Translations under genes and position numbers: made by a program
Notes under the pieces: model-generated
The model's input: the letters and a program-made list of their open reading frames with translations, nothing else
Databases searched by the model: none
Told to the model about the DNA's origin: nothing
Source of the DNA: Telmatactis stephensoni
Lineage: Eukaryota; Cnidaria; Anthozoa; Actiniaria; Isophelliidae
Assembly (NCBI GenBank): GCA_029948255.1
Contig: JALIZF010001767.1
Location: 310,001 to 374,000 of the forward strand
Direction of reading: 5' to 3'
Length of the DNA: 64,000 nt
Part shown: one piece after another, positions 53,823 to 61,136 of the stretch
Layout: the number at the start of each line of letters is the position of its first letter
How positions within the stretch are numbered: the stretch's first letter is position 1

Positions 53823-54410
53823 GATTCACCTCTTAATTAACATCTATTTTCATAAATACGCGCAGCATGTAGCTTCTTTAGTCTTTAATAGTTAGAACAG
53901 CGAATGGTCTCGGTACACGATAGAACACATAATTTACAATACAATTACTAGCAACGTCAGTGTCACGTGCACGGAATCATTTACGTAAAAGATCGAAGTA
54001 CCTCATTGCGAGATTGCCATAGCAACAACAACGTATGACTGTGTGCCACTGTTGCATCGTGTGCCGAGGGCCAAGGTTTCACGAGGGAAGTAACATTAAA
54101 AAAACCAAGAAAAACAAGTAAAACAGGTTTTATTGCTGATCAAATAGTACATTTATTTATAAACAAACCATAGCCGTTCATCAGGTAAAGCCCACAGCTG
54201 ACATTTGCTGTTTTCAGACCCTGCCTTCATCCTTTCAAAGCTCAAGCTACGTTTGTTAATTATCCTTGAGCAAGACGCTCTAAAAAGTATTTAAAGTCCA
54301 AGAAAAGCGCAAGCGACAAAGGATTACATGACTAAATTTCCGTAACTGTTGGCATTTGTCTTATTTCTGTTTCGAAGAGGAGTTTGTTACTGATACTGAA
54401 CAAGAAATAA

Positions 54411-54644
54411 GGGGGTGTTTACATGACACTAGGATCATCCTCGCACAAGGATCATCCTAGCAGGCGAATCATCCTACCTGCTATACATTTACTGCATTCT
54501 GTTTACATGGAAATTTGTGTCTTTACTTCGGGTACTAGGATCATCCTACTAAACAGAATGCAGTAAATGTATAGCAGGTAGGATGATTCGCCTGCTAGGA
54601 TGATCCTAGTGCTAGGATGATCCTAGTGTCATGTGAACAGGCGG
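54411..54644. mobile_element. MITE with internal CTAGGATGATC repeats
   Basis: TGTTTACATGACACTAGGAT and GCGAATCATCCTACCTGCTA are mirrored by TAGCAGGTAGGATGATTCGC and TAGGATGATCCTAGTGTCAT. The self-complementary unit GGATGATCCTAG recurs several times. Confidence 0.85.
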
Positions 54645-54659
54645 TCAAAACTTCTGTAC

Positions 54660-54865
54660 AAGGGAACCCCGCCCTACGTCATCAACCCGTTAAATACGTC
54701 TACCCCGCTAATATGACCACCTCATTTTGGTCCGGCATCTCAAGAGAGATCGTACTTGATCTTTTGTAGAAAATACTCCGTCAATACGGCCACCTCGTTA
54801 CTACGACCAGGTATTTCTGGCACATAGGTCGCCCTATTGACAGGGTCTCACTGTATCTGAGGCCC
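54660..54865. mobile_element. Tigger/pogo-like nonautonomous remnant
   Basis: AAGGGAACCCCGCC..., AATACGGCCACCTCGTTACT and CAGGGTCTCACTGTA resemble the repeated TAATACGGCCACCTCGTTAA ends of pogo/Tigger-like elements widespread in animals. The assignment rests on memory of that pattern. No transposase is present. Confidence 0.45.
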
Positions 54866-54879
54866 TGAGACAGGATGCA

Positions 54880-55395
54880 ACTTTCTTGCAACGTTGCGCA
54901 TCACAAGAAGATTTGAAAGATGACACACGATGCAAATTTTCCTGTAACTACTTGAGAACAGATCTAAATTCTATGTCTACGAAGGTTAATATAATGTTAA
55001 TAACCGGATCAAGTCTGAAACCAAAGCCGCATTCATCGACACTTATTCGTAACACTGTAGAATTTGTTGCGCGCCCAGCGTTGCAGAATATTACAGAGCT
55101 ACATTCTACTTCTCCAACTGTACGAATTGCACGAATTATACGCAATTACATGAAACGCTGCATGCGCGACAGTTGCAGAGATGGGCACACGGTCCAATTC
55201 TGTGTCGCACCAAGAAACCATAATACTAAGGGTGTTTTCCATTTAGTGGCAATTCTTAGCTCTGGCTGGAATCAGTCCTATGAAATCAGGCCGTTCTGGC
55301 CGGTTGGTTCCACTAAATGAAAAACACCCTAAGAAAGCAAAACTCACGGAATGATGTCTGCGCGATGTTCGTAGCACTGAAGGTTATTTTTAGTG
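54880..55395. mobile_element. Cluster of overlapping MITE remnants
   Basis: A GCAAC-family stretch (about 54880-55200) abuts AAGAAACCATAATACTAAG (55211), a terminus of the CAAGAGACC family. That terminus is split by a complete small palindrome at 55231-55333 (GGTGTTTTCCATTTAGTGGC / TTCCACTAAATGAAAAACAC). The outer element resumes with AAAGCAAAACTCACGGAATG. Confidence 0.65.
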
Positions 55396-55404
55396 CTAGA
55401 AAGG

Positions 55405-55617
55405 TTAAGATTCACGTACACGGAAAACGGCGGAGATCACGTGACCTACTTTTTTCGTACCTGGCTTTGTGTGTTTGGAATTCAAATGAGAGAGTGACTT
55501 TTCACCTTTACGCCAAATACGAAATAATTCGTCGTCGCGTTAAAACGGCAAGGCCAGACGCGGAAAAAGCAGGTCACGTGATTCTCACTGCCATTTGCCG
55601 TTTACGTGGATCTTAAC
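55405..55617. mobile_element. MITE with GGTTAAGATTCACGTACACG termini
   Basis: GGTTAAGATTCACGTACACG, then GAAAACGGCGGAGATCACGT, is mirrored by GTCACGTGATTCTCACTGCC and CGTTTACGTGGATCTTAACC. It lies just beyond the likely 3' UTR of the selenoprotein gene. Confidence 0.8.
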
Positions 55618-56007
55618 CTACCTAGTAACAGGAAGTTGAGCCATATCGCGCGCATGATGCATATGATGCATATTTCAAACATGAAGAAACCTTGGTTGAC
55701 GATGTCTGTGACGATGTCTGTGTCTGTGTCCTATTCAACAAACGGGCTGATTAAACTTATCCAGGCCTCTGAGGATCTTGGGACAAAATATTACAGAACA
55801 TGGTTCAAATTTGACAGGGTTTCTAAACAGTCGCTCATCGTATTGCAGAGCATCACAAACTTCTGTCAGCGAAAAAGTTACAAATGCGAGGGTGCAAAGA
55901 TTAAACGCTTCAGTTGTATATACGATAATCTCAACCACGTGACCCTTTTGCCGTTTGCTGTTCCCCATTTTCCGAACTGCATTTATTAAAGCAACAATTT
56001 TTATCAT

Positions 56008-56693
56008 TTATGATTTTAAAACTTTGAGCAAATCTTCTATAGTTGGCCTGTCAGTTGAAATCTTACTTCGATAAACTAGTTTCATGTTGCCATGGCAATT
56101 CATCACAAAGTCTCCACCCATTTGTGTTGGGTCGTCTTCGTCAAACATTCCAAAGAGCTTTCTTCCCTGTCTTTTCTGTTCTGCATAGTACATCAAGGCA
56201 GAAGTGGCCCAAACTTTGTAAACAGACCGCTTGAGACCAAGTGCTTGGTAGAGTTTGCGGTTGTCATCTATGAACATCGGGAATTCACATTTGGTTTGGT
56301 CAAGCCATTGCTTAGCACCAGACTGAAAGACAGGGAAGCAACGTTCAAAATTCACATCTTCCTGACAAAAGTGCTTCTTAGATTCCAATATGTACAATGG
56401 AACTTGAACTGGATGGACTTATTAGTACTGGATTTAATAATTAAATAAATATCTTGGACAGCTATTTTATTGTTTATTGACCTTATACGAATAAAACAAA
56501 ATAAACTGCACCCTAATTTTTTCACTCACCAAGTTTCCAAAGCTGACAATAATGATGTGACCATTAGCTGCTTCAAATTCCTGTCTTTTTGACTGCATTT
56601 GAGCAACATGGTCACGTCATGGTAGTCATGCAAAGTGTCGCAATAGTATCATGAGCAGGTCTGACGAACCAATAGTCTTGAGGAGTTCTTCCA
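56008..56693 (-). CDS. Selenoprotein L-like Prx/thioredoxin-fold protein with UxxU motif (two in-frame TGA)
   Basis: Exon 56693-56530 (phase: two leading bases) joins in frame to exon 56322-56008 (stop TAA). The first exon reads EELLKTIGSSDLL, then MILLRHFA-U-LP-U-RDHVAQM, then EFEAANGHIIIVSF. The U positions are TGA codons, exactly where Prx-like-2/AhpC-TSA_2 proteins carry the CxxC redox pair. The second exon continues with GAKQWLDQTKCEFPMFIDD, LYQALGLKRSVYKVW and GGDFVMN. A Prx-like thioredoxin fold with UxxU is the hallmark of selenoprotein L, described in aquatic animals as forming a diselenide. Apart from the two TGAs the frame is clean and both splice sites are good (CTTACAG, GTGAGT, CTTTCAG), which argues against a pseudogene. 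The 5' exons are not settled. I could not point to a SECIS element by eye. Confidence 0.85.
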
Positions 56694-57007
56694 CTGTAAG
56701 TTTACTATAAAATGTTAGAAAAGTTAATTGTTAGCTCTCACTACCCTACTTGTCAGATAGCTTAGAAAAGTGTTGGGATGAGGTGAGCACTGGAGAAATT
56801 CCTTGTTGCTGTAAGATTGCTGTAAGAGGTCAACCATTTTTGAACCCAGCGACTGCATTCCTATTCTCATAATAACAACACATGGGTTATTAAGCTCAAT
56901 GTTTCGCATACAAGCCCTTTTAGGGTCAAAGAACAAAATATCATATGCAACTCTTCAAAGTGACTCCTCAAGGTAGACTTTTCTGAGCTACTTAACATTA
57001 AACAAAA

Positions 57008-57189: not shown

Positions 57190-57913
57190 ACTCAGGAAAA
57201 TCACCTTTCAGTCCTCACATCAGTCAAAGTTAAACCACAAGGTCCAGCAGACCCAACACTAAGGTCATCTGAGCTTTCTCCTCCACTGATTTTTATGTCA
57301 ACACCTTCTAAAAAGTCATTCCATTCTGTTTCTTTGTCTATCAGTTCATCTGCAGTCTCTGCAACATCATCATGGGAGTATAATTTTCCTATTTCATCAT
57401 CTAGTTCAGCTCTACTTTGAACACCAGGTATTGCAAAGTAAACTGTAATAATGACCAATAAGACTGTTCAACTGTCGCACTGAATCACTGACAAAATGTT
57501 CAGAAGACTTGGCAAAATTTTCTTTGGCATTGGATAATAACTTTGACATGCATTCATGAAGATTATTTAGTTCTTGTATGAGTGATTCTTTGGTTAATGA
57601 TTTCACCTACATGGGGGAAAGAGAATATGTTACCATATAAATGACGGAAGGCAGAAGACGGTGAGGGACAGACGTGGGGAGAACTGTAAGCTGAGAAATG
57701 CAAAAAAAACGTAACCTCTGCGTTGAAATACAAAAACGTCCTTAGGGTCGTTAAAGTTCCTCTGTAAAGTTGACGAAAGTATGGGGGCGTTCACCTTGAC
57801 AGAAGGACGAGCTTTATTATACAGTAACTGGATCAAACTACCTCGATTTCTTTGGTTTTTACATCCTCTTTGGCTCGTTTGGGAGGAGGTTCACCTTCAC
57901 CTTCCGCACTCAT
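57190..57913 (-). CDS. Putative 5' exons of the selenoprotein gene (NLS-like leader, helical and acidic segments)
   Basis: Exon 57913-57842 starts MSAEGEGEPPPKRAKED, a plausible nuclear-localisation-like basic patch, and ends at a GTAGTT donor. A second exon begins at 57606 after CATGTAG in the same phase and reads KSLTKESLIQELNNLHEC and FAKSSEHFVSDSVRQLNS, an amphipathic helix. Further coding in another frame (57425-57200) reads AELDDEIGKLYSHDDVAETA and DKETEWNDFLEG, strongly acidic. I found no splice pair that links these two frames; a frameshift, an assembly error or an unseen intron is needed. Strand, order and adjacency suggest they are the N-terminal part of the UxxU gene, but an independent small gene is possible. 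I do not recognise the family. Confidence 0.5.
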
Positions 57914-58300: not shown

Positions 58301-61089
58301 ATGCATCAAGGTGAGGTAGGAGATGAAGTAGTATCCATGTTAGATGTACTCGAGGAGGACAAACAGTTAGAGGAAGAAGCAAATGCAGTGCTTGGAGACA
58401 GCGACGACCAGTGTTGCACGTACACTAAAGTAGGTAGACCTTTCATCTGACGGCAAGAAAAATAGCTCAATTTTGCTGTATTGGCAGAATAGCTAGAAAG
58501 AATGAGGAACAATATATTCTGTAGTTGCAGAACTGACGCTTCGAAATGTAGAATATGCTCTTCCGTCCTTGAAAACGTAACGGAAGAGAAATTCCGTCAT
58601 TTAGAAGCAGGGTGTTCGCGTTACATCATTATGTGAAACATAATTTTCATTCATTCTTTTTCTTTGTTTAAAATCGCTAAAAAAAGTTTCAACAAAAGTA
58701 TTGCACTTCAATAAAACCTACTGTATACATCTCCATGTTTGCCTTTTAGCAGGGAATAGATAGGATGAATAAATAGATCATATTAAAAGCGTCATGTACT
58801 TGAGAAAAATGGCGGACAGATTTTGTACTTGGGTCAAGGGAGCACGTCAAAATTTTGTTTGTGTTGATTTTTTGTTTGAATAAATAAATAAAAATCACAA
58901 ACCGTGTGCGATATTCCGCAGGCATTCCTTGCAGAGATAAAAATATGCCAGGCGTTCCTCGTTCGTACAGCCGATGTCGATTTTCTCCAACTCTATAACA
59001 TGTACAAAGTTATAACGAAGTTGGAAGTAGAAAAAGTTAATATTGTCACTGCCTCCTTGGTCTCACACAACTTTGTTAATCCAGATGGGTTAATTTGAAC
59101 GACAACATCACAACAAGGAACGCCTAGCATATATCGATCTCTGCCAGGAACGCCTGGAAAATTGCTCATGCTTCACAATGCCAGACATGAAAAAAGCAGG
59201 TCATATAATCCCTTCTCGTCTGCTTTTCCTCATATGTAAAGCTCTTTTCATATATGAATGGATAAATGAGTGAATGAACAAATGAAAGAACAAATGAATG
59301 AATGCAAAAGCAAGTGTTCTTCTAACTTTGGTTCAGCATTGAAGATCCTTGATGCCAGTTGCTACTGCATTCTTGATAAACTAGAATACAGTGGGCTAAT
59401 TTAAAGGACCAGACACCATGCAAATTATTGACCAGCTGTACAGTACAGTACAGTACAGTACAGTGCTGACCCACAGTACAGTTGAATGCTCCATGAACAG
59501 CAACTTCTGTCATGGAGTCAAGTAAATCTGCAAGATTAACTTGTCCAAGTCAGCCTTCTCCTGCATCAATTTTTTGACTTATCTGAAGTGAACACACCTT
59601 TGCTGGATTTTGCCCAGTTGTCTTGAGAAACTCGGATTAACTTTTGATAATAAACATCTGTAGTCTTACCTGGCTTTACAGTCAGTTGACCTCCAGTTTA
59701 AAATGATCTTAATGAAACTCCTGAGAATACAACCTACCAACTTAAAATTACAGTATTAAGATTTTCTTATAATATATTAGTTTTTCTCTCTCTGTAGGGA
59801 TATGTAAACAGACAAGCCTTGTATGCCTGCAATACTTGCACACCAACAGAATCAGCTGGACTTTGTCTTGCTTGTAGTCTCACCTGCCATGAAGGACATG
59901 AACTTTATGAACTGTATACCAAAAGGTACAACCAGCCCTTCAGACGCTTGATTGGAAGGGAGTAAGCCACCTTAAATTTTGAGCTGCTCTCTTCAAAATC
60001 AAAATCTCTGAAAGAATATTTGGGATACATACAAAATCTTATGATAAAAACAAGTGGAAAACAACTGTATATTTTGAAAGACCCAGCTATAACATTAACA
60101 TACCATAGCAAAATATTTTTCCTCACCACCTAACAGAAGATTTATGTATTTTAACTCCAATATTATAAATCCTAGTCGGCCTTGGCACTTTGTTATATAA
60201 TTGTATTTCTTTTTCAAATTTCCTTTCCCTTCTATTATTTTGACCTAATCTATGGTTATTATTTTTAGCAAAAACATAATTTAATGAATTTTAGCAAGTT
60301 CCTCAAAACTGCTGAATTTTGTACTTGCTGAAATTAGTATTAATTCTTGGTCATCAATTGTAATAAAAATGCATGGTCATTTCCTCCCAAAAATTGCTAA
60401 AAGAAATCGTTAAATTTAGTAGTTGCTAAAAATAGTAAGCTTAAGGTAAGTGCCAGCTTAGAGCAGATTTTGTATGACTGTGAAACATCACCGCTTGGTC
60501 ACAGTGTCCACAGTTACTACAGGAATTCTGAATGCTTTTTATAGACAACAGCACTTACAGCAATATTGCAGCACAGCAATTGGGTCATTTCATACTTATA
60601 TGAATTCTGCTCTAGATAGCATAAATTACAGAAAATATTACTTTGTTGTTGTTATTACTCAGGAATTTCCGATGTGACTGTGGCAACTCAAAGTTTGAAA
60701 GCAGATGCAAGTTGCACCCTGTAAGTTTTGCAGATTTCATATTCTCATGATGATAGAAGGGGTGTGTAACAATATTTATTGCTTTGCTCTGCAACAATTG
60801 CCTTGCAACAATTGCCTTGGCAATAAACAGGGCTTTCTACCAACACCAAGACTGGACTCAGTGCTGACAATACTGTGTACAAGTGCATCACATGATTCAA
60901 TTGACAACCCTACCTTGGTAAGGACTTTGCTGCAGTTTGTCTTACAACTGTAAAAATTTTGTTTTTCAGGATAAAGATGAAGTTAACAGTAAGAACAGCT
61001 ACAATCAAAACTTTAAAGGGCAGTATTGCACTTGTCACAGACCTTACCCTGATCTTGATGATGAGGTGAGGGCACTGTCTTGTTAAATG

Positions 61090-61136
<47 letters not shown>

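Follow-up and report, generated by a model that had tools for sequence, protein, structure and literature searches.

A very probable selenoprotein L gene with two in-frame TGA codons at its redox motif in a cnidarian genome

In the 64-kb stretch of genomic DNA analysed here (the window; positions 310,001 to 374,000 of contig JALIZF010001767.1, with coordinates counted from its first letter), the minus strand very probably carries a four-exon gene for selenoprotein L (SelL) of a cnidarian, most likely an anthozoan, in which two in-frame TGA codons are predicted to be read as selenocysteine (Sec). The SelL identity is supported by a family match above cut-off, by CxxC or WxxW at the TGA positions of relatives, by tRNA-Sec and SepSecS-like exons in the genome, and by a candidate Sec insertion sequence (SECIS) element, scoring below the Rfam cut-off, in the 3' untranslated region (UTR).

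Gene structure and the two in-frame TGA codons

Four exons joined by GT-AG splice sites and ending in a TAA stop were read on the minus strand, with the following features.

57842-57913, minus strand: exon 1, with the start codon at 57913 (MSAEGEGEPPPKRAKEDVKTKEIE), from translation and the GT donor, the start codon by inspection
57205-57606, minus strand: exon 2, N-terminal part, with AG acceptor and GT donor and a one-base frame break inside, near 57440-57455
56530-56704, minus strand: exon 3, which carries the UxxU motif (LLRHFAULPURDHVAQM), from splice sites, alignment with a starfish relative (P0003) and the own-genome family search
56626-56628, minus strand: first in-frame TGA (predicted Sec), from the spliced translation
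56617-56619, minus strand: second in-frame TGA (predicted Sec), from the spliced translation
56008-56322, minus strand: exon 4, ending with TAA at 56010-56008, from translation and the own-genome family search (66.4 bits)

Exon 3 translates as LLRHFA-TGA-LP-TGA-RDHVAQM. Both TGAs that the initial annotation had placed in an otherwise open minus-strand exon are present, in the sequence and frame it gave. It had drawn the exon as 56530-56693; the donor end stood, while the real exon is 11 bases longer upstream (175 nt). Its acceptor has AG (ACATTTTATAG) and its donor GT (TTG|GTGAGTGA). Apart from the two motif TGAs, the spliced frame is free of stops between about 57458, in exon 2, and the terminal TAA. 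The chance of two stops falling on two given codons among about 242 is, by arithmetic, about 1 in 29,000. A CxxC with both cysteines encoded, as in PRXL2, the Cys form of the peroxiredoxin (Prx)-like 2 family, is not found here, both codons being TGA.

The longest open frame nearby (129 amino acids, 56397-56008) begins in the intron, covers exon 4 and lies downstream of the motif, as had been noted from the sequence. Translation might be supposed to stop for good at the motif, giving a short N-terminal protein that ends at RHFA and a downstream piece made separately, and the automatic annotation of the sea anemone Exaiptasia (P0009) does put the protein start after the motif. We regard this as barely conceivable, since the conserved frame and domain continue through both TGAs, the downstream piece would have neither the motif nor the strand preceding it, and tRNA-Sec is present in the genome.

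Family and relatives

For the family scans, Cys was written for both TGAs and the last 240 residues served as query. The NCBIfam family NF040769 (SelL_rel_redox, "SelL-related redox protein") was matched at 137.4 bits against a cut-off of 120, over positions 11-172 of its 173-position profile, and this match to the SelL-related family supports the initial call of a probable SelL. PF13911 (AhpC-TSA_2) was matched at 55.5 bits (cut-off 27) and AhpC-TSA also passed its cut-off; the N-terminal 88 residues matched no Pfam family. When four relatives were scanned with NF040769, P0003 (131.7) and P0002 (130.6) passed, while P0043 (at 90.6) and P0009, a partial sequence (at 98.3), failed. In the assembly itself (483.5 Mb, 1782 contigs), the SelL family model, run at E 0.01, matched nothing but exon 4 (at 66.4 bits) and exon 3 (at 41 bits, with the mark '2 TGA') of this locus; all four candidates were scored, and the control was positive in 9 of 14 genomes, above cut-off in none.

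Two protein searches, yielding 7 and 41 relatives with 5 common to both, gave 43 distinct proteins. The motif is spanned by three: P0003 of the starfish Patiria miniata, which has CLPC, and P0002 and P0043, which have WLPW. Both TGAs fall exactly on the CLPC cysteine positions of P0003, as the initial annotation had it for the CxxC of this family, and LLRHFAxLPxRDHV is kept in all three proteins, in agreement with its claim of conserved flanks. The residues seen at both positions in the motif-spanning relatives are thus CxxC (one) or WxxW (two). The WLPW of P0002 and P0043 probably reflects, we infer, a gene caller that took TGA for Trp; among genome and viral contigs, 59 and 29 pattern stretches were examined for the DNA encoding the relatives, and none was confirmed. 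The other 40 relatives start downstream of the motif, some by a few residues and many by about 40, and stops at the motif positions would cause such late starts in gene calling, a pattern that is consistent with stops there and is not proof of them.

Identity reached 52% over 100% with P0002, and 70% over 77% of the query with P0009 (LOC110252835) of Exaiptasia diaphana, the closest named relative and a sea anemone, which points to a cnidarian, probably an anthozoan. Alignment with P0002 starts at residue 31, and the exon 1 residues were matched by no relative. With the N-terminal 184 residues as query, no match at E 0.001 was obtained among 240 candidates, and annotated orthologues ending at the first TGA were therefore not found by N-terminal search; N-terminal homology to P0002 was nonetheless seen in direct comparison.

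Two public records of Exaiptasia diaphana, P0009 and P0014, start past the motif, and the redox site is therefore lacking in those annotated records.

These relatives also bear on whether the gene encodes an ordinary Cys- or Trp-type Prx-like protein, its TGAs being due to error or RNA editing, or exon 3 being skipped. The starfish protein has the Cys form and the WLPW relatives could truly be Trp; against this, errors are an improbable source of two separate TGAs at both redox positions, skipping the 175-nt exon would shift the frame and remove the motif, and the late starts of the 40 relatives are consistent with stops at the motif, again short of proof. An ordinary Cys- or Trp-type protein is, on balance, very unlikely.

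Selenocysteine decoding, the SECIS candidate and opposing evidence

UGA-Sec decoding is very probably present in the organism, given the genome sequences found for tRNA-Sec(TCA) and SepSecS-like exons. The tRNA-Sec search gave 11 matches in the genome, one of which, at 79.9 bits, exceeds the gathering score of 47, with the other ten at 39.2-46.4 (control positive in 14 of 14 genomes, above cut-off in 5), and ARAGORN called the best match a tRNA-SeC with anticodon TCA. For SepSecS, 12 exon matches above cut-off were found at two loci, with a control positive in 3 of 14 genomes (two methanogens and Bacillus subtilis). The two SepSecS-like loci (L003 and L004, on contigs C44 and C251) may be two genes or two haplotypes.

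The 3' UTR contains the following elements.

54169-54240, minus strand: candidate SECIS element, with its ATGA core at 54230-54227 and TGAT from 54183, from Rfam SECIS_1 and a pattern scan
54129-54157, minus strand: two poly(A) signals (AATAAA, first bases at 54157 and 54134), directly past the SECIS candidate
55982-55987, minus strand: proximal AATAAA, about 20 bases past the stop, from a pattern scan of the 3' UTR

The element at 54240-54169, with its ATGA (54230), an AAAA apical loop and TGAT, was first spotted by eye and then matched by Rfam SECIS_1 with a score of 22.3 bits (E 0.79 for a search of 5.5 kb). Located 1.78 kb downstream of the stop codon, it falls close to the 3' UTR end, directly before the two distal AATAAA, and is the single SECIS_1 match at E 10 on both strands of the 64 kb; no Rfam family attains its gathering score anywhere in the window. 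In a pattern-plus-fold scan it ranked first of three matches in the window, while shuffled UTRs gave any pattern match in 31 of 1000 cases and an equally stable one in 4 of 1000. It is likely the SECIS of the gene, a good candidate rather than proof. The initial annotation had pointed to 54500-56100 of the minus strand for such an element; the strand proved right, and the candidate lies just outside that interval and below the Rfam cut-off. An own-genome SECIS_1 search gave none at E 0.001 and is uninformative, as scoring covered 150 of 11501 candidates and the control was positive in 0 of 14 genomes.

Under the proposed mechanism, tRNA-Sec(UCA) would read both exon 3 UGAs as Sec, and a single SECIS near the end of the approximately 1.9-kb 3' UTR would direct insertion at both. 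The product would be a peroxiredoxin-like protein with the redox motif U-L-P-U in place of C-x-x-C, whose two Sec could cycle between a diselenide and two selenols, and we propose that the protein would therefore work as a thioredoxin-fold oxidoreductase. For this gene we infer that the SECIS works, that Sec is inserted, that a diselenide forms and that the protein has this redox role.

Several observations weigh against this reading. The SECIS candidate falls 12.7 bits under the Rfam gathering score (22.3 against 35) and its E rises to 9.2 when the whole window is searched with all families; the criteria of the pattern scan were set once the candidate had been seen by eye; and the 105-nt region around it folds no better than shuffles (z -0.94, with 36 of 200 as good). 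Use of the proximal AATAAA would leave the candidate out of the mRNA. The SepSecS model is not fully specific, as the Bacillus subtilis control matched too. Exons 3 and 4, taken singly, score under the SelL family cut-off in the own-genome search, and the late starts of the 40 relatives are also explainable by introns or start-codon choice. Finally, upstream of the motif and within 57430-57470, exon 2 carries a single base more than the reading frame of P0002 and P0003 would have.

At this break, one frame runs through HYYSLL and the +1 frame continues from FAIPGV. The two sides match residues 18-66 and 72-170 of P0002, segments that almost adjoin, and the stretch between them aligns gap-free by hand if one base is counted extra. 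Most likely the assembly has an error here, next to T runs; the allele may instead be damaged, and a programmed frameshift is very unlikely. Should the break be real and the gene used, a +1 ribosomal frameshift would add to two UGA-Sec recodings in a triple-recoded animal gene, which we consider exceedingly unlikely. A real break might equally mark a decaying SelL pseudogene, the TGAs being remnants of a once functional selenoprotein gene, and the three MITE-like inverted repeats (MITE, miniature inverted-repeat transposable element) in the 3' UTR fit decay as the extra base does. Yet the 240 residues past the break are open except for the motif TGAs, the identities to P0002 and to Exaiptasia P0009 are 52% and 70% over the lengths given above, the splice sites are intact, the family was found at one locus only in the own-genome search, and the break lies beside T runs, where assembly errors would be common. 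A pseudogene is therefore unlikely, and a functional SelL gene remains our preferred reading.

The inverted repeats lie between the stop and the SECIS candidate.

54416-54639: MITE-like inverted repeat, arms of 90 nt, 97% complementarity
55226-55333: MITE-like inverted repeat, arms of 24 nt, 92% complementarity
55396-55625: MITE-like inverted repeat, arms of 41 nt, 80% complementarity

Two miRNA-like Rfam matches (54460-54595 and 54468-54587) were below cut-off and were rejected, being accounted for by the long inverted repeat. A zf-UBR domain gene, presumably UBR7, lies on the plus strand at 58310-61100 (41.2 bits against 25.2; exons by eye), head to head with the SelL gene, the first coding exons of the two lying about 400 bases apart.

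Comparison with known systems

SelL was reportedly first described by Shchedrina in 2007. Two selenocysteines sharing one CxxC-type motif, as in SelL, are rarely seen. A cnidarian copy with mapped exons and a SECIS candidate offers a testable gene in animals for which redox stress may be ecologically important, and it illustrates a practical annotation fault, the anemone record P0009 beginning after the motif and having no redox motif.

Table 1 of PMC3473315 gives one SelL gene each for Amphimedon, Trichoplax, Nematostella, Capitella and Branchiostoma, five of the six species tabulated, and SelL in a cnidarian has accordingly been in print since 2012. Since SelL is tabulated for Nematostella, the gene described here adds one more member to a family already known, also from this phylum. 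In fish, according to statements in PMC3316567, SelL has two Sec, two residues apart, inserted with one SECIS, and among vertebrates it is confined to fish. A passage of PMC2397514 states the SelL diselenide and the restriction to aquatic organisms, and speculates on an aquatic diselenide reduction system. In PMC2398784, marine metagenome sequences of a Prx-like 2 family are described as having UxxU, and SelL is listed with the families common to prokaryotes and eukaryotes. SelL in corals appeared in none of the titles and abstracts of the matches listed in our literature search, which is no proof of absence.

Like the SelL of Nematostella vectensis and other marine invertebrates, compared by their table entries, the gene would encode a metazoan SelL of an aquatic animal; the copy here has the exon 2 frame break and a long 3' UTR with MITE-like repeats. 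As in fish SelL, compared by the published description, its two predicted Sec are two residues apart and would be served by a single SECIS. The NF040769 model serves bacterial and archaeal annotation, and Cys was entered in place of Sec for the match to it. PRXL2B, the prostamide/prostaglandin F synthase (PDB 9us9, 9usa), has a Prx-like fold and a CxxC that aligns to the motif; in contrast to the predicted product, it has Cys rather than Sec, its sequence match is weak (E 0.011), and EDDPTQMGGD is without a counterpart in it, save for GG in the alignment.
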